From: Victivallales bacterium
Lineage (GTDB): Bacteria; Verrucomicrobiota; Lentisphaeria; Victivallales; GWF2-38-69
Assembly: GCA_021733985.1 (NCBI GenBank)
Contig: JAIPJT010000020.1
Coordinates: 1-44,546 of the forward strand
Length of the DNA: 44,546 bases
Direction of reading: 5' to 3'
A program made the translations under genes and the position numbers. The notes below the pieces were generated by a model, which was given only the letters and a program-made list of their open reading frames with translations, was not told where the DNA came from and did no database searches. This document shows, piece after piece, positions 13,827 through 40,573 of the stretch (its first letter is position 1; each line of letters begins with the position of its first letter).

Positions 13827-14059
13827 TTATACCGATTCTTTATTATTTATATACCCTTCCGGATTAATATCTATATTTTTTTTGTCTGCCAGATAAGAAA
13901 TGAAGGCACTAAAAAAATCTTCAGATTTGAGCTTTATAAGGTGCGATTTTATACCTTTTCTGCTGAAATCATCGACACAATGCCGCTGCAATAAGCATCT
14001 TACCGCTGTCCGAAGTTGTCCCTGCAACCATTATTGCTTTTGCATGGGTTTTTTGTCAT
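13827..14059 (-). pseudogene. remnant of cobyric acid synthase (cobQ/cbiP)
   Basis: On the minus strand, one frame reads AKAIMVAGTTSDSGK then MLIAAALCR, a stop, FQQKRYKIAPYKAQ. This is the start of a cobyric acid synthase with its P-loop GTTSDSGK at 14022-13999. The in-frame stop is at 13971-13969. The candidate start ATG at 14059, preceded by AAAGG, is in another frame, so a frameshift is needed too. After KAQ (13927) the matching frame ends. Another frame then gives SEDFFSAFISYLADKKNI, which resembles the C-terminal helix of CobQ. The central 400 or so codons are missing. The N-terminal match is strong; the C-terminal match is tentative. Confidence 0.75.
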
Positions 14060-14176
14060 ATTACCTTTTAATTTCATTTTTGAAAATTCATTGGATTTTT
14101 TAAAACAGAGCATTAAAATAAATATATCTTAAACCACTTATTCTCTACAAATATAAAGCATAAACCAGTGAAAAAA

Positions 14177-14359
14177 ATGAAATATGAAGAACTAAAAACT
14201 AAAATTGATTCATATGTCAGGGAAAATTATCCCGATTTTTATAAGCATAGCGAATATAATGCTGCTATAACGCACTGGATGCATAATCCAAATATAAAAT
14301 ATCCATATATGACTAATGCAGTATTTCATTATTTGAGAAAGAAGTTCAGATTAGAATAA
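14177..14359 (+). CDS. small hypothetical protein
   Basis: Not recognised. It reads as 60 residues from the ATG at 14177; a GTG at 14168 would add three. It is charged at the start (KYEELKTKID) and rich in Tyr, His and Asn in the middle, and ends in the basic helix YLRKKFRLE. No cysteines or membrane segment are present. It lies 30 nt before the nuclease-helicase gene on the same strand, in the same low-GC stretch, so it may be its partner. There is no convincing ribosome site. It could be a spurious frame. Confidence 0.45.
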   Translation: MKYEELKTKIDSYVRENYPDFYKHSEYNAAITHWMHNPNIKYPYMTNAVFHYLRKKFRLE

Positions 14360-14389
14360 AAACAGCAACCCATTTTCCCAGGCACTATA

Positions 14390-16360
14390 ATGAGAAGAGC
14401 TTATTACAGCGATAGAATTAATAGTTTTTTGCATACAACTTCTAACGAAATTATCGGAAAACTTACTACCCAAAGCATTTTTCCGGTAGAAATAACACAA
14501 CGAAAAGCCTGGGAAGCAGAAATAGATATTTTAAAAAAGGTTTTAAAAGGAATTACTGGGAAAATTTATTTTGAATTTCTTATCCCGAGGATGGGTAAAC
14601 GAATTGATGTATTATTAATTATTGATTCTATACTTTTAATTTTAGAATTCAAGGTTGGAGAAAAATATTTTAGTTCATATGCTATAGATCAAGTCTATGA
14701 TTATGCTTTAGATTTAAAAAATTTCCATGAGCCCAGTCATAATTTAATAATTTTCCCTATTCTAATTGCGACAGAAACCCCAAAAGATTTTTCCTCAATT
14801 TGCTTTATTAAACATAATGATAAAGTAGCTCTTCCAATAAAAACAAGTCCAAAAAATCTTTCTAGTATAATAAATTGTTGCTTAAAACAGCAGGAAAAAA
14901 CGAATAAAAAAATAGTTTTTGATGAATGGGAAAATGGGAGATATTATCCTACTCCAACTATAGTGGAAGCTGCAACCGCTCTATATAATGGACATACAGT
15001 TTCTGAGATTAGTAGAAGTGATGCTGCAAACCTAACAATTACTTCTGAAACAATTTCAAGCATAATAAGAAAATCAAAATCAAATAATGAAAAATCTATA
15101 ATTTTTGTTACCGGAGTTCCAGGGGCAGGTAAAACTTTGATAGGGTTAAATATTGCTACAGAACATTCTGACAAAAATGAAGAACTTTATAGCGTTTTCT
15201 TATCCGGTAATGGTCCTCTTGTAAAAGTTCTATGTGAGGCATTGACAAGAGATAAACAAGAGAGAAACAAAAAAGAAGGAATAAACTCAAGGAAAACTGA
15301 TATAGCCAAAGAAGTGAAACAACGCATACAAAATGTTCATCATTTTAGAGATGAATATTTGCGTGATAGTAGACCACCTATAGAGCATGTTGCTTTGTTT
15401 GACGAAGCACAAAGAGCATGGAATATTGAACAAACTTCTTCTTTTATGAAGAGAAAAAAAGGAGAAATGGATTTTAATATTTCAGAACCTAATTTTTTGA
15501 TTTCTTGCATGGATAGACATAATGATTGGGCTACTGTTGTCTGTTTAGTTGGCGGCGGTCAGGAAATAAATACAGGGGAGGCTGGCATTTCTGAATGGTT
15601 ATCAGCAATACAAAACTCGTATCCCCATTGGAACGTTTATTTACCTCCTAGGCTCAAAGATAAGGAATATTCAGCTTTGGGAACCTTATATAAAATGAAA
15701 GACTGCAACGTTTCTTATCTGGAAAATTTGCATCTCGCAGTGTCAATACGTTCTTTTAGGGCAGAAAATGTATCGTTATTAATAAAACAAATTTTAGATT
15801 TTGATTTGAAAAGTGCACAAAGAACATATTTAAAATTAAAAAATAATTATCCTATTGTATTGACTCGAGATATAAATGTTGCAAAGGAATGGTTAAAAAA
15901 GAATGCCAGAGGCTCTGAACGTTATGGCATTATAGTATCTTCACAGGCTGAAAGGTTAAAACCTCATGCTATACACGTAAAAACTCCTATTGATCCAATT
16001 CATTGGTTTCTTAACGACAAGGAAGATGTTCGTTCTTCATTTTTTTTAGAAGATGTTGCAACAGAATTTCATATTCAAGGTTTAGAACTTGACTGGGCAT
16101 GTGTAACATGGGATGCAGATTTTAGATATAAGGATAATAATTGGGCGAATTGGTCTTTTAAAGGGAATAAATGGCAAAAAATAAACAAAGAAGAGCGTAA
16201 AATTTATCAAAAAAATGCATATAGGGTATTATTGACGAGAGCTAGGCAAGGAATGGTCATTGTTGTTCCAAAAGGAACTAAAGAAGACCATACAAGGAAG
16301 CCTGAATATTATGATCCAACTTTTAATTATTTGAAGCAAATTGGTTTCGAAGTTATCTAA
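14390..16360 (+). CDS. PD-(D/E)xK nuclease fused to DUF2075 (Schlafen-like) helicase
   Basis: A 656-residue fusion. The N-terminal 180 residues have the pattern of a PD-(D/E)xK nuclease: D73 after KRI, E86-F-K88 in LILEFKVG, and Q101 further on. A superfamily 1-type DUF2075 helicase domain follows. It has Walker A GVPGAGKT (242-249), Walker B LFDEAQ (D338-E339), the motif [10 protein letters not shown], and near the end [10 protein letters not shown]. Such nuclease-helicase fusions often act in phage or plasmid defence; this is inference. The region is visibly poorer in G+C than its neighbours and lies beside a decayed gene, which suggests transfer. The substrate is unknown. Confidence 0.82.
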
Positions 16361-16509: not shown

Positions 16510-18585
16510 CTACTGAGTTTTATATCCGAAAATATTCCCGAATTTTTTACTGTTCAAGGCTTCTGTATATGCATTGATTTTGGTATATGTGCTGCAGGGG
16601 TCAACTGTAGGGTCTATGCAGTCACCATCAAGTACAAGTAACGGAATTAAGGCTTTATCCAGTTCTTCGCGCAGGTGTTTTATGAATGAAGCGTCTGCCA
16701 TTGAACAGCGCCCAAACATATGATTATATAAAATACAACCGTTAAACTTTCCTCTTATAGAATATTTTTTTATTTTTTCCACACGCTGCTGCGGATCAAG
16801 AAAGCCGACCGTAAGAAGTTTTCTTGCGAGAGAGCGATAAGGGTCTTTTACATCGAGCGGGTCCCAGCCCACAAAGTTGGCCTCTTCGAAAACAATAGGG
16901 GCATTGCATTCCAGTTCAATATAATCGAGCAGGCGGCTGTCATAGAAAGGCGGTAGATGAAGCCATAGTATTCTGTGTGTATTATCAATATCTACTTTTC
17001 CAGCCAGCTCATTTCTTCTTTCAGTAAGGTCTTCTAAATACTGTTCCTGTATTTCAACAAGTTCCTTCTTGCCCCAAAGCTGAGAAAATATCGCTGCGAA
17101 ATAAATAGCAAGCCCTCCTCTGAGCAAAGGTGGTGAAGTAAATCTTAATTTGTTACATTCCAGAGAAGTATCTCGTGCCCGGTTTGAAAGTTCACAGGCT
17201 TCTTCAAGTCTGCCCTGGTCCAGTTTTGCGCCTAAGGCTTTTTCGAGTTTGCCAACTGCTGTTTGGAGGTCTTCGGCAACATGTTCTACTGCAGATTCAT
17301 CGTATTTTACCGGAGTATGAAGAGAAAAGAAATTTTCCTCCATGTTGTAGTTTCTTATCAGGTCATGAAAAATACGTTCTCCCTGGAGGCAGGGCTGGGA
17401 AGTAGAAACACCAAAAACGGGTTTAGGAACTTCTATACCCTCGAGAACCCTCAGGAAAGAGCATGTTTCTGCACCTGTAAAACCTTTATATGCAGCAACA
17501 TCAAATGAATGTTTTATTTTTTTTCTGTTTCTCGCGAACAACGCTGCGTATGTTTCAAGTGTCAGCATTTTAGCGCCGAATGCATTGAGAATTTCAGGCG
17601 GAAAAAATAGGTTTCTCCATACAACTTTATCATTTTTTCTGACAAGAAAATCTTTTCTGGTATATTTAGTCCTCAACGAGATTGACTTTAAACGATCTGA
17701 GCCATAATCAACTTTTACTTTTTCTCTTAAGCTTTTTTTACGATCATAATATTCTTTTGCAAGAGATGCGGAACCCATTGCTCCCATTACACCGTTATAT
17801 TCCGGAACGACAATTTCATTTCCGGTGATTAATCTCAGGAACTCACAAACGGCCTTATTATATGCTACTCCCCCCTGAAATACGATTCTGCCTTTATAAT
17901 TATGAAATATTTCACCAACTCCTGACATAATAGTCCTTGCCTGGGCTTTGCAGGCACCGCCTATAATTTGTCCGATAGGATAACGATTTTTGAATTTGTT
18001 AATTGAGGTTGCACTTAGTACTGCACATACGGATGAAAATTCCAGTTCTGAAGAAAGATCAGCTTTTTGAGCCATTTCTTCTACAGGTACAGCCAGTTTC
18101 AAGGCAACGCTGTCAAGGAATGCACCGGTACCTGCCGCGCAAATACCGCTCATTTTGGAATTCCACATCTGCATTCCTTCATTATATATCATCGCCTTGC
18201 TGTCCTGACCGCCAACATCAAGTATTGCTTTGCAGTCCTGAAAGAACAGTTTAGCACCTGCGACATGTGCGGTAACTTCACTAACTTTATAATCAAAATC
18301 TATAGACTCGTGGGTATCTTCAACAATCTGGCTTCCAGTCACAACAGTACATGCCATGTCTTCTTCTTTTAAACCTGCATCAGAAAGAAAGGTTGTTACT
18401 GTATTCTTCAATGCCCCTATATTGCATGCCCCGCATTCAAAACATCTGCCGGTGCAGGTAATGGGCTTTGCCTTGGCCGGTTTTGTTCTTCTGTACAGCC
18501 TGTTAATTATTTTAAGATTTTCATCAAGAAGTACTGCTTTAAGAGTTGTAGACCCGACGTCTATCCCTAAAAAGAAATTTTTCAT
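16510..18585 (-). CDS. fused 2-hydroxyacyl-CoA dehydratase activator / HgdB-like protein
   Basis: A 691-residue fusion of two parts that are usually separate. The N-terminal 270 residues form a BadF/HgdC-type ATPase: GIDVGSTTLKAVL at the start, DVGGQDSK (123-130), and cluster cysteine C149 in ICAAGTGAF. The C-terminal 350 residues resemble the D-component of 2-hydroxyacyl-CoA dehydratases, with cysteines in ETCSFLR, QPCLQGE and GRCSMAD and the DGDCIDPTVDP motif. An extra cysteine set C44-x3-C48-x2-C51-x2-C54 sits inside the ATPase domain. The expected chemistry is ATP-driven one-electron transfer to a low-potential iron-sulfur cluster. The substrate is unknown, and the double-cubane reductases are relatives to consider. 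Confidence 0.82.
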   Translation of the reverse strand: MKNFFLGIDVGSTTLKAVLLDENLKIINRLYRRTKPAKAKPITCTGRCFECGACNIGALKNTVTTFLSDAGLKEEDMACTVVTGSQIVEDTHESIDFDYKVSEVTAHVAGAKLFFQDCKAILDVGGQDSKAMIYNEGMQMWNSKMSGICAAGTGAFLDSVALKLAVPVEEMAQKADLSSELEFSSVCAVLSATSINKFKNRYPIGQIIGGACKAQARTIMSGVGEIFHNYKGRIVFQGGVAYNKAVCEFLRLITGNEIVVPEYNGVMGAMGSASLAKEYYDRKKSLREKVKVDYGSDRLKSISLRTKYTRKDFLVRKNDKVVWRNLFFPPEILNAFGAKMLTLETYAALFARNRKKIKHSFDVAAYKGFTGAETCSFLRVLEGIEVPKPVFGVSTSQPCLQGERIFHDLIRNYNMEENFFSLHTPVKYDESAVEHVAEDLQTAVGKLEKALGAKLDQGRLEEACELSNRARDTSLECNKLRFTSPPLLRGGLAIYFAAIFSQLWGKKELVEIQEQYLEDLTERRNELAGKVDIDNTHRILWLHLPPFYDSRLLDYIELECNAPIVFEEANFVGWDPLDVKDPYRSLARKLLTVGFLDPQQRVEKIKKYSIRGKFNGCILYNHMFGRCSMADASFIKHLREELDKALIPLLVLDGDCIDPTVDPCSTYTKINAYTEALNSKKFGNIFGYKTQ

Positions 18586-35792: not shown

Positions 35793-36953
35793 TTACCTTC
35801 TCGGTCTCCGATAATCGGGTATTTTAGTTACAGTAAACTTTTTCCCGTTTTTTTCACGTTCGAAAACTAATTTATTGTTAGCAACAGAGATAAGCTTGTA
35901 TTTTTCCACTCCAGTTCTCTTATTGCCAAGTCTAAGAACATTATTAACTTTAGTCATTATCGGACTGTTTCTATATAAATCTCTTAATATAACACGCCTG
36001 CTTGGTTCAAAAACCGGTTCTTTAACTTTTGCATTTATAGACTGGCCGAGACTGTCTTTCAATATAACTACAGAGTTGTCCTTACTGACAATCGCACCCA
36101 GTTTGGGGTCTAAAACCGAATCATATCTTTCCTGTATATCTTTTATAATATAATTTATATCATTTGTTTTAAATTTATCCCCGATTTTTAAAAATTTAGT
36201 TCTCCAGGTACCCTTGGATTTTCTTATATTAATTTGTGTTTTCCAGTTATCTTTATTATAACCGTATTTGATTATGCCCATTATTTTTATAGGTATTTTC
36301 GTATTTGCAACTTCTTCAAGTTTAATCCTTTTAATTAGCGGGGGATGGATTTTAGGATTTAAAACACCCTTTTTATTATATTTATATTCTACAATATTAC
36401 TAAAGGAGTCGTTATCAGAATCATAGAAAGCATCATTTGCCGATTCCGGATTCAAACCGTATTTTTTTTCCATAACATCAGGGATTCCGTCATTATCGTA
36501 ATCGTAACTGCTCGTATATAAACTGAGCTGTTCAGAATTAGGTTTGGGCAGTGTTTCATTGGAAATAGGACATTTACCTTTTAAATAATTTTCATATGGT
36601 ATAAGCATACCGTCGGAACCTTTTGCTATACTTCTTGCTATTTTGAACGGCTGCATAAAATCAGTGCAGCAGCATATATAGGTTTTAGATTTTTTATCTT
36701 TATTTCTTTTGGGGGATTTCATCCATAAAACAGTTTTTTCAAAAAAAGATCTGGGCGTATATTTTTCTTTCTTTATAGGTTCATACTTGGAAAATCTGGT
36801 GCTTATCGAAGAGCTATTCATTTTTTCGTAATTTTTATTGATAAGAGATAAAAAATTGACAAGTATAAAAATAAATAAAACTATCCCTGCAGCCAAAGCT
36901 ATTTTATCTAGCTGCTTTAAAATTGATAAAATTATGGTTTTTAAAATCTTCAT
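35793..36953 (-). CDS. Amuc_1099-like pilus-system protein with calcium-type repeats
   Basis: A 386-residue protein with one membrane helix (15-38) and the rest outside the cytoplasm. After a CCC cluster (94-96) come two thrombospondin type 3-like Asp repeats: D151-YDNDGIPD159 and D178-SDNDSFSN, likely calcium sites. The C-terminal half is beta-rich, with short strands like KFLKIGDKF and GAIVSKDNSVVIL, similar to PilP-type proteins. The gene begins directly after the stop of the 1100-like gene. The Akkermansia Amuc_1099 assignment rests on gene order and layout. Confidence 0.7.
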   Translation of the reverse strand: MKILKTIILSILKQLDKIALAAGIVLFIFILVNFLSLINKNYEKMNSSSISTRFSKYEPIKKEKYTPRSFFEKTVLWMKSPKRNKDKKSKTYICCCTDFMQPFKIARSIAKGSDGMLIPYENYLKGKCPISNETLPKPNSEQLSLYTSSYDYDNDGIPDVMEKKYGLNPESANDAFYDSDNDSFSNIVEYKYNKKGVLNPKIHPPLIKRIKLEEVANTKIPIKIMGIIKYGYNKDNWKTQINIRKSKGTWRTKFLKIGDKFKTNDINYIIKDIQERYDSVLDPKLGAIVSKDNSVVILKDSLGQSINAKVKEPVFEPSRRVILRDLYRNSPIMTKVNNVLRLGNKRTGVEKYKLISVANNKLVFEREKNGKKFTVTKIPDYRRPRR

Positions 36954-38150
36954 TTATAACTTAACTAATTTTTTATTATATATATAATAGCTGATTCTGA
37001 TTTTTGACCTTATTAGTTTGGAAGTCCCGATGACAATTTTAATATCAAGTTGTCTTTTACGCTTAGCTGGAGGCCTAAGTTTAGTTGCATTGTCAATTGC
37101 TTTTACAAAGGAAACATAATCGACAGAATAAACTCTGTTATTTTCAGATGCCTTCTGCAGTTTATTTATAAAAGATCTGATTGATTCTAAAGAAGCTATT
37201 ACTTCAATTTCATATCTTAATACTGTAAATTTCCCTTTTTTAGTTCCCCGAAGACCGTTCAATTTTGTGTGTACCGGCATTGATTCAATATTAGAATTTA
37301 TTATTTTGGAAACTAAGTCCTGGTAGAACCATAAATAATTAATTATATATGGTATTTGATCATTATTGGGCATAGTGGTGAATTCATCAAAAAGTATTAA
37401 TTTTTGAGATGAAGACTGAATTTTATTTTCATATAGTTTTTGATTAATTCTTTTTTCTAATTGAGAGATTAATTCCTTGCATTGAATTCTTGTAATACTC
37501 AAAGGAAACCCAATACTGTTCATAAAGAAATCTTCTGCCAAGACTTTGCTGATCTTAGTAAAACTGTGCCTTTGTAAAGATTCTGTAAACATATTTAGAG
37601 CATTATCATAATCTTTTGAGGAATAACCGGATTTTTGGAGAAATTTACTGAAGGTTGCTTTGTTTGAGGAATTGGTTTTCTTTTTGGGGTGATGTTTTTT
37701 AAAGTAATTTTCCCATGATTTCAAAAAACTTTCCAAACTTTTACATTTATCAATTTTGTCTTCAGAAGCATCATTACTGTTACTGACATCGGCCTTTTTG
37801 CTTAAGTTTTTTTTAAGTGATGTTACAAATTCGCACAGAGGTTTCATATAAGGATTGCCGAATTTTGTTTTCATTTCGAATAATTTATCTCTGACAAAAG
37901 AAGCATCTTTATTAATTAAATCAATATTATTAGATGAAGGGGTTGGTTTGTAGTAATTTATAGACTTTAATCTTCTTCCTGTACGTTTAATATTTTCAGC
38001 AACTTTTTTGTTTTCCTCTTCAGTTAATGTTATAAGGCCGAGAAGATATAAACAAATAAACAGAGTTAAAAGAAGTATTCCTCCGATTATGAGATAATGT
38101 TTTTTTATCTTTATTTTTTTAATAAAGTTTAATTTAAGGTTAAGTTTCAT
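36954..38150 (-). CDS. Amuc_1100-like (PilO-like) pilus protein
   Basis: A 398-residue protein with one N-terminal membrane helix (18-42) after a basic stretch, a coiled-coil-prone segment, a long helical region and a C-terminal alpha/beta part (YEIEVIASLESIRSFINKLQKA and DIKIVIGTSKL) like PilO. Amuc_1100, known as a TLR2-active outer-surface protein of Akkermansia, has the same plan and the same place between the 1101-like and 1099-like genes. At 398 versus about 317 residues it is longer, mainly in the central Lys/Ser-rich region. It overlaps the 1101-like gene by 4 nt. Confidence 0.68.
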   Translation of the reverse strand: MKLNLKLNFIKKIKIKKHYLIIGGILLLTLFICLYLLGLITLTEEENKKVAENIKRTGRRLKSINYYKPTPSSNNIDLINKDASFVRDKLFEMKTKFGNPYMKPLCEFVTSLKKNLSKKADVSNSNDASEDKIDKCKSLESFLKSWENYFKKHHPKKKTNSSNKATFSKFLQKSGYSSKDYDNALNMFTESLQRHSFTKISKVLAEDFFMNSIGFPLSITRIQCKELISQLEKRINQKLYENKIQSSSQKLILFDEFTTMPNNDQIPYIINYLWFYQDLVSKIINSNIESMPVHTKLNGLRGTKKGKFTVLRYEIEVIASLESIRSFINKLQKASENNRVYSVDYVSFVKAIDNATKLRPPAKRKRQLDIKIVIGTSKLIRSKIRISYYIYNKKLVKL

Positions 38151-39910
38151 TGTTCTTTCAAAGTTTTTCTAAGCTTTATGTTCATACTGAATGTAGTAAT
38201 ATTATTTTTTGGATTTTCTACCGGTGTATATTTTAGTATTTTAATATCTTCAGAATTATTAGAGGTATAGTTTGACTTAAGCAGGTTTTCCTTAAAACGT
38301 TCTGCCGGAGTTTTTTTCCCTTCGGAATGAATGATTAACGAATGACCTTTGATTTTTATCATATCAATTTCCTGTTTCTCTTTTTTTTCGGAAGTCGGCT
38401 TTCTACTCGTTCTCCTGCTGAATAAAGCTCTTCTTTGAGTTTTCTTTTCAGTAGTAGAAACAGTATTTTCCGAATATGGCAAAAACTCTACTAACCAGGT
38501 ATTATCAGGCAGATATTTTTCAAAATTGTTAAGTAACAGGGGCCAGTAATTTCTGTCTTTTATAATACTTTTATAAGAATTAAGTTTATTTTGGGAGTTC
38601 TTCAGACTTTTTTCTGCGGACTTAAGTTTATTCAGGTGCTGTCGTTTTGTACTTAAAACTTTTTTTCTTAGCGATAATAATTTACTATATGCCGTGTATG
38701 TTTTATATTGTCCGAGATATATAGTAAAAAGACATAGAATAATTGTACAGCATGCTGCAGTGATATAAGGTATTTTTTGTATCAGAAAATACTTTTGGGT
38801 GATGCTTCTTGGCAGTAAAGATATTTCAATGGGGCAGGTTGTTATATGTCTGAGTCCGAGGCCTATTACTTCAGCTGTCATGTGAGCATAATTTGCCAGT
38901 TCGTTTTTATCTACAGAAGGTGATATTTTTACTACACTGAAGGGATTAAAATATTCAGTTTCCATTTTCAGCTTTGTGGAAAGGAAGCGTTCGGTAAAAT
39001 TTATTATAGAACTTCCTCCGGCCAAATAGAGTTTTTTGGGGGGCGGTGATTTTTGCTGAGACCTATAGACATTAATTGATCTGTTAATTTCCGAATGGAG
39101 CCTGGTCATCACATTTCTAATGATTTTTGAGACAATTGTGGAAACTTCTGAATCAACTTCTTCGTAAGCTCCTCCAAGCGCAACGAATCCAATATTTCTT
39201 TTCATGTTTTCCGCTTCTTCATGGGAAACATCGAGTTCTTTCATGATTTGCTGAGTAATAGTATTGCCTGCAACCGGAATTGTTCTTGCATAAAACTGGT
39301 TCTGGTTAATGAAAACAAGGGTTGAGCAGAAACTTCCCATGTTTAGAATTAAAGATGGTTCCTCCTCTCCGACTCTGTTTGCTTTGGCAGCATTAAAAAA
39401 TGTTGTTGGTGTTATATCTACAAATTCAGCTTGTAATTTGTTCCCTTCAAGAATTTTGATAAAGTTGTTAATAATATCGTTTTTGATAACAGCAATCATC
39501 ACGCTAATTTCTTCAGTTGACTCATCTACTGGACTTAAAAGCTGGTAGTCCCAGGTCACTTCTTCAATTGGATAAGGGATGTTCTGTTTTGCTTCAAATC
39601 GGACAAGCTGATTGACCTGTGTTTCCTGTTTAGAAGCAGGAGGCAGTTTAATAAATCTTACAAAGGTAGTCTGGCTCGATATAGAAAGGAAAACCTTACT
39701 GGTTCTGAATTTATTTTCTGAAAGTATTTTCTTTAAGGCTTCAGCAAGGAGCGGGAGTCTGGACTCGTTAGAATCGGCTTCACCGGCATATTCTTCATAA
39801 ATAAATTTTTCCAATACCATTTCATTTGGAGTAGGATATGTGAATTCAGCTATTTTTATGCTGGCCGCTCCTATATCGATAACAACTCTGAAATCAGCTT
39901 TTTTTTTCAT
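38147..39910 (-). CDS. Amuc_1101-like PilM-PilN fusion
   Basis: A 587-residue protein. The N-terminal 350 residues form a PilM-type actin-fold ATPase: VVIDIGAASIKIAEF at the start, LILNMGSFCSTLVF, the VAGNTITQQI strand and LYLAGGSSII. A membrane helix (380-400), a coiled coil (405-455) and a periplasmic PilN-like domain follow. Thus PilM and PilN functions are joined in one chain, as in the Amuc_1101 family. It starts 9 nt after the 1102-like gene. Confidence 0.85.
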   Translation of the reverse strand: MKKKADFRVVIDIGAASIKIAEFTYPTPNEMVLEKFIYEEYAGEADSNESRLPLLAEALKKILSENKFRTSKVFLSISSQTTFVRFIKLPPASKQETQVNQLVRFEAKQNIPYPIEEVTWDYQLLSPVDESTEEISVMIAVIKNDIINNFIKILEGNKLQAEFVDITPTTFFNAAKANRVGEEEPSLILNMGSFCSTLVFINQNQFYARTIPVAGNTITQQIMKELDVSHEEAENMKRNIGFVALGGAYEEVDSEVSTIVSKIIRNVMTRLHSEINRSINVYRSQQKSPPPKKLYLAGGSSIINFTERFLSTKLKMETEYFNPFSVVKISPSVDKNELANYAHMTAEVIGLGLRHITTCPIEISLLPRSITQKYFLIQKIPYITAACCTIILCLFTIYLGQYKTYTAYSKLLSLRKKVLSTKRQHLNKLKSAEKSLKNSQNKLNSYKSIIKDRNYWPLLLNNFEKYLPDNTWLVEFLPYSENTVSTTEKKTQRRALFSRRTSRKPTSEKKEKQEIDMIKIKGHSLIIHSEGKKTPAERFKENLLKSNYTSNNSEDIKILKYTPVENPKNNITTFSMNIKLRKTLKEQ

Positions 39911-39919
39911 AAAAAGGAT

Positions 39920-40573
39920 TTATTGCAGTTTTAAAAGTTCATATTTGTTAAAACTAATCAAGGACCATGGAGACTGCATTCGGTTTAACAGACCTCCATC
40001 AATCCTAATTGTGTTCTTACTGTTGAGGGAGTCCTGAAAAGTTTTCTCAACAGAGCGATTTTCGGGGTAATAGTAGAATGCAGAGTTTTTTCCTTTAAGC
40101 GAAAAGGATATTTTTATCATTATGTTTCTTTTCAGAAAGTCAGAATCCGGAGTTTTGTTTTTTGAAATAACTTTTCCCAGTATTTGAGGCGGTATTAAAA
40201 AGAGGGCATATTTTTTTTTGTTATTAAAGTCTATTGTCACATAACGGGCAGTATTTGATAAATGGAAATTATTTTTTCTTCCTGTCACCAGTGTATCTAC
40301 TTTAATCGCAAAATTACAGTTTATTTTATCGGAGAGATCTGAATTCACAATTGAATCAGCAGGAAATGCTTTATATTCAATATTTATCAGCACCCACTTT
40401 CCTCTTCGCTTATTACCGATTTTATTTGGAACATTCTGCACAAAAAAGATTGGTGTTGCTGCAGTTGACAGTTTAACGCGAATGCTTTTAAATATATTTT
40501 CAGCCCCATCAGATGAAAATATAATAAAAATAAATGTAAATAATATAAAATAACTGATTTTTTTTTTGAACAT
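39920..40573 (-). CDS. Amuc_1102-like pilus-system protein
   Basis: A 217-residue exported protein with a signal peptide (5-22) and a beta-rich, Lys-rich body, first in the 1102-1101-1100-1099-1098 order. Short strands such as KWVLINIEYKAF, FAIKVDTLVTG and KISFSLKG fit the immunoglobulin-like fold known for Amuc_1102. It ends with a charged helix. There is only a weak ribosome site. The assignment depends on position, size and fold-like pattern. Confidence 0.65.
   Translation of the reverse strand: MFKKKISYFILFTFIFIIFSSDGAENIFKSIRVKLSTAATPIFFVQNVPNKIGNKRRGKWVLINIEYKAFPADSIVNSDLSDKINCNFAIKVDTLVTGRKNNFHLSNTARYVTIDFNNKKKYALFLIPPQILGKVISKNKTPDSDFLKRNIMIKISFSLKGKNSAFYYYPENRSVEKTFQDSLNSKNTIRIDGGLLNRMQSPWSLISFNKYELLKLQ

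Follow-up and report, generated by a model that had tools for sequence, protein, structure and literature searches.

The locus at positions 14177 to 16360 raised the question of whether a short ORF and the long ORF behind it form a compact two-gene defence or toxin-like system, as an earlier note had proposed, and whether such a system already has a name. The window, that is, the whole 44,546-nt stretch of DNA analysed, was checked for the coordinates of both ORFs (Table 1), and the 60-residue ORF was found 30 nt before the large ORF, as that note had it. The GC content was 31.6% for the locus and 35.9% for the window, in agreement with the low-GC island described before, and the large ORF had the lowest GC3 (0.205) among the 27 window genes tabulated. 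About 13% of same-sized stretches, for example at 35-41 kb, were equally GC-poor; therefore, GC content alone was not diagnostic. A second GC-poor block (window 35793-40573) fell to 28-31% in places and carried minus-strand ORFs, three of them without a Pfam match; it adjoined PilM and secretin genes and is probably a gene cluster for a pilus or a type II secretion-like system. The decayed gene reported next door was the frameshifted N-terminus of a cobyric acid synthase gene, a neighbour outside the system. The window genes around the locus were housekeeping genes (RecQ, LptF/G, and SelD) and formed no defence island, and the flank gene at 16510-18585 had differing neighbours in relatives. 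Promoter-like sites at the locus were no more frequent than in shuffled sequence.

Table 1. Features of the locus, its decayed neighbour and the methyltransferase loci that carry the small module (window positions unless a locus is named).
Feature	Position	Strand	Remarks
Small ORF	14177-14359	+	60 aa from ATG; GTG at 14168 gives 63 aa
Intergenic gap between the same-strand ORFs	14360-14389	+	30 nt; terminator-like site not found
PDC-S41 nuclease-helicase ORF	14390-16360	+	656 aa; PADLOC profile and 22-sequence alignment
Predicted PD-(D/E)XK core	14561-14770	+	Residues ~58-127: E62, D73, E86-x-K88, Q101
Schlafen group 3 (DUF2075) SF1-type helicase domain	15092-16270	+	Pfam SLFN-g3_helicase; conserved motifs
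Cobyric acid synthase (CobQ) N-terminal remnant	13900-14080	-	Frameshifted; NCBIfam E 5e-12 with the two-frame peptide
Module-bearing methyltransferase loci	L040:4032-5369, L057, L058, L059, L060, L063		

PADLOC analysis of the large protein revealed a match of 942.5 bits to the PDC-S41 profile, with residues 1-655 lying on profile positions 1-652 of 657, and the likeness extended to domain order and length. By this full-length match the large protein belongs to PDC-S41, an already catalogued phage defence candidate, so the locus does have a named counterpart, which the earlier note had been unable to supply. The PADLOC definition comprises a single gene, whereas the window copy has an extra ORF upstream. 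The literature search found no paper that names PDC-S41, no published test of the family, and no paper joining DUF2075 with phage defence.

Alignment of 22 homologues drawn from several phyla (lowest identity 29%) showed that D73, E86, K88, Q101, and the Walker A lysine K248 were invariant, while E62 and the main helicase motifs were invariant or nearly so. The structure model, which was of middling confidence (pLDDT 72), contained strands at residues 58-65, 70-78, and 81-88, a helix at 96-112, and a strand at 120-127; D73 was located on the second of these strands, and E86 and K88 were located on the third. Motif conservation and predicted strand order both indicate that the N-terminus is a PD-(D/E)XK nuclease domain, and the four residues singled out in the earlier note stood up in the alignment. 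Pfam named no family for this region, and the distant G023 homologue gave weak matches to NERD/HSDR_N. Shedu was rejected as the family; an SduA-type (DUF4263) nuclease model was absent among the Pfam and PADLOC matches.

The nuclease is joined to a Schlafen-like DUF2075 helicase, as had been suggested: Pfam SLFN-g3_helicase (formerly DUF2075) covered residues 235-627 (E 1e-83), and the Walker A motif GxPGAGKT (242-249), DEAQR (338-342), QGLELD (563-568), and RVLLTRAR (612-619) were conserved. Among solved structures, the whole model most resembled human SLFN11 and SLFN14, with TM-scores so low that the matches confirm the helicase class and not the whole protein; outside the helicase, fold matches were weak. 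The likeness to SLFN11, SLFN14, and bacterial Schlafens thus lies in the group 3 helicase domain, but the window protein has an N-terminal PD-(D/E)XK domain in place of the Schlafen/AlbA_2 nuclease domain. Membership of the Schlafen family proper was rejected, since Pfam detected no Schlafen/AlbA_2 nuclease box. Nhi and AbiO are single polypeptides proposed to unite a nuclease and an SF1 helicase for phage defence; their alignment with the window protein was confined to the P-loop region (20-24 bits).

Homologues at 51-61% identity were found in Pseudomonadota, Chlorobiota, Bacteroidota, and Verrucomicrobiota, on plasmids, and on one unverified phage-labelled contig; in IMG/VR, the large protein had no match. 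Within the class, 20 of 198 genomes (about 10%) had a homologue, and the gene was absent from both other searched members of the source genome's family. In the tree, the window gene grouped with Chlorobiota and Gallionellaceae, apart from relatives of its own order, at a fork whose support (94/89) was short of the strict mark of the tool. The tree and the GC3 point to lateral acquisition of the large gene. Two Verrucomicrobia homologues (L012:5788-7964 and L015:5815-7971) were split over several frames and are either pseudogenes or the product of sequencing errors.

Among the order relatives, the neighbours of the gene included a full-length Avs4, a fused type II methyltransferase-endonuclease, a NERD-UvrD helicase, RT-Toprim, and DUF262 (HEC-06/Orf5/SspE-like) and PDC-S14 genes, and a plasmid homologue adjoined a McrC-family gene and an AAA ATPase. 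At L004:5052-9912, in a Sideroxydans MAG, a solo PDC-S41 gene lay between genes read as accD and folC in the order trpB-trpA-accD-folC; it had the same direction, and a mobile-element gene was not obvious at the junctions. Apparently, it is a lone gene inserted into a housekeeping operon.

Homologues in housekeeping loci were held in the earlier note to speak against defence. Some solo homologues do sit inside such operons, L004 among them, but as isolated insertions with flanks that vary by locus. These copies, the housekeeping neighbourhood in the window and the combination of an SF1-type helicase with a nuclease would all suit a repair or RNA-processing helicase without a part in defence. 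Such a role is nevertheless highly unlikely, as the gene occurs in so small a part of the class, its tree conflicts with taxonomy, its neighbours differ at each solo locus, it is repeatedly co-located with known defence genes, and homologues are carried by plasmids and the phage-labelled contig. A defence role of the nuclease-helicase, as predicted from its family and context, is well supported.

The small ORF had no match in Pfam or PADLOC. TIGR04540 (CLB_0814 family) was rejected as its family, with 17.6 bits against a curated cut-off of 50, and gave no match in its homologues. BLASTP analysis revealed matches to a small ORF of G023 and to the N-terminus of the L063 methyltransferase, and the pairwise comparison with a methyltransferase N-terminus gave 2e-11. 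Leave-one-out profiles recovered the small ORF of the window at 71 bits with the window row removed and that of G023 at 68 bits with the G023 row removed. Recovery at these scores indicates that the 60-residue ORF is a real gene, and the matches indicate its homology to the N-terminal extension of EcoRII/MvaI-type m5C methyltransferases. Its conservation, which the earlier note had left to be checked, was thus borne out, though the homologues are mostly fused to methyltransferases.

This module of 55-65 residues, with the motif P..HPE..A..TH...NP...P, heads EcoRII/MvaI-type methyltransferases of this phylum. Among the relatives searched, G023 carried it as an ORF by itself and G033 as part of a fusion, and the profile search added copies in G238, G354, G361, G313, and G349, the last two being the weakest. 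The copies in G033 and in these five were N-terminal extensions of cytosine-5 DNA methyltransferases, and the identified neighbours of the module-bearing methyltransferases were EcoRII-type or MvaI/BcnI-type restriction endonucleases. Module searches of IMG/VR returned one locus only, a methyltransferase; phage and plasmid records gave no module match, and about 300 genomes in each of the phyla of G390 and G389, searched without a positive control, gave weak, fragmentary matches or none. In a module-bearing methyltransferase, matches to solved structures did not start until past residue 80, which leaves the module without a solved relative at the sequence level. The small ORF was modelled as four helices (pLDDT 87), and the fold search with this model gave no match.

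Two further copies were observed. In G209 (L077:7053-7696), a third stand-alone module ends where a 145-aa ORF of unassigned family starts, and a convergent ORF beside it was read as an HNH endonuclease. In G033 (L040:6039-6476), a degraded second module lies about 0.7 kb upstream of the methyltransferase and overlaps an ORF read as PIN-toxin-like.

To survey the pairing of the two genes, the upstream regions of 32 homologous genes were taken (at most 1.5 kb, and down to about 0.5 kb at contig ends), and all ORFs of 25 aa or more in them were searched with the module profile. The module was present upstream of the large gene in two loci, the window and G023, with gaps of 30 nt and 44 nt. The best match among the other 30 loci (8.8 bits, a 42-aa fragment) was regarded as a chance match. 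The helicases of the window and G023, the latter truncated by its contig, were about 30% identical and lay on strongly divergent tree branches; the pairing therefore arose twice or was often lost. Of the three stand-alone copies in the 198 class genomes, two were directly upstream of a PDC-S41-like gene. By our estimate, one such placement among the two copies other than that of the window has a chance probability of <1e-4, on the assumption of about 0.1 PDC-S41-like genes per genome and some 3,000 genes each.

The conserved pairing sought after the earlier note was thus recovered in the divergent G023, but in only 2 of 32 loci. As 30 loci lacked the module, the usual unit of the family is one gene, and the proposed compact two-gene system applies to a minority of the loci. 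The same counts bear on the reading of the locus as a two-gene toxin-antitoxin system, in which the small ORF would be an antitoxin that silences the nuclease-helicase. Its small upstream ORF, short gap, operon-like layout and recurrence in G023 would be expected of such a pair, but obligate pairing was not observed, the module gave no match anywhere in 16 genomes or records with an unpaired large gene (a search run without a positive control), and its other relatives are methyltransferase N-termini and not antitoxins. Since the large gene usually occurs alone, the effector is tolerated alone, and a strict toxin-antitoxin pair is very improbable; the toxin-like character suggested at first found no specific support.

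A second alternative is that the small ORF is the remnant of a cytosine methyltransferase gene that lost its catalytic part, and that its proximity to the helicase is accidental. This would fit the methyltransferase N-termini that make up most of its homologues, the degraded copy upstream of the methyltransferase in G033, and the decayed gene that already adjoins the small ORF. However, the small ORF is an intact frame that keeps a conserved core and closes with its own stop, G023 has the same arrangement with similar spacing before a very different helicase, and G209 has a third stand-alone copy. We consider this origin rather unlikely, though the more plausible of the two alternatives for the small ORF.

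A possible model for its function is found in the EcoRII-related methyltransferases M.SsoII and M.Ecl18kI, which carry a small N-terminal extension in the same place as the module in the related methyltransferases. In M.SsoII, the N-terminal domain acts as a transcriptional regulator of the enzyme's own restriction-modification system (PMC3978073). That of M.SsoII and M.Ecl18kI is a repressor-like helix-turn-helix, whereas the module has a different motif and gave neither a fold match nor a helix-turn-helix match. For the small ORF, a role as regulator modelled on M.SsoII would therefore be an analogy and not a membership.

Taken together, the locus is probably a laterally acquired PDC-S41 candidate anti-phage effector, a stand-alone nuclease-helicase that is occasionally accompanied by an accessory or regulatory mini-protein. 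In this candidate effector, the Schlafen-type helicase domain would use ATP to engage and travel along the nucleic acid of an invader or, alternatively, to detect an intermediate of replication or repair; cleavage of the invader nucleic acid would fall to the N-terminal PD-(D/E)XK domain. DNA would be a likelier substrate than RNA, because several neighbouring genes are DNA-restriction genes. Either direct restriction or abortive infection could result. Most likely, the small protein would be an optional accessory, either a regulator of the operon or a tether of the effector to DNA or a partner. A broader proposal, that the module serves as a transferable adaptor for self/non-self distinction or DNA tethering, built into EcoRII-type methyltransferases but a protein of its own for the nuclease-helicase effector, so that modification enzymes and a helicase defence would have a recognition part in common, appears improbable.

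What is new here is the module, together with its relationship to restriction methyltransferases and its occasional place beside a nuclease-helicase. For the PDC-S41 family, an untested candidate gains a catalytic anatomy open to mutagenesis. The restriction-system methyltransferases and the nuclease-helicase have in common a previously undescribed module, and, should this module prove to control or target the two, modification and helicase-based defence would share a part of a new kind.
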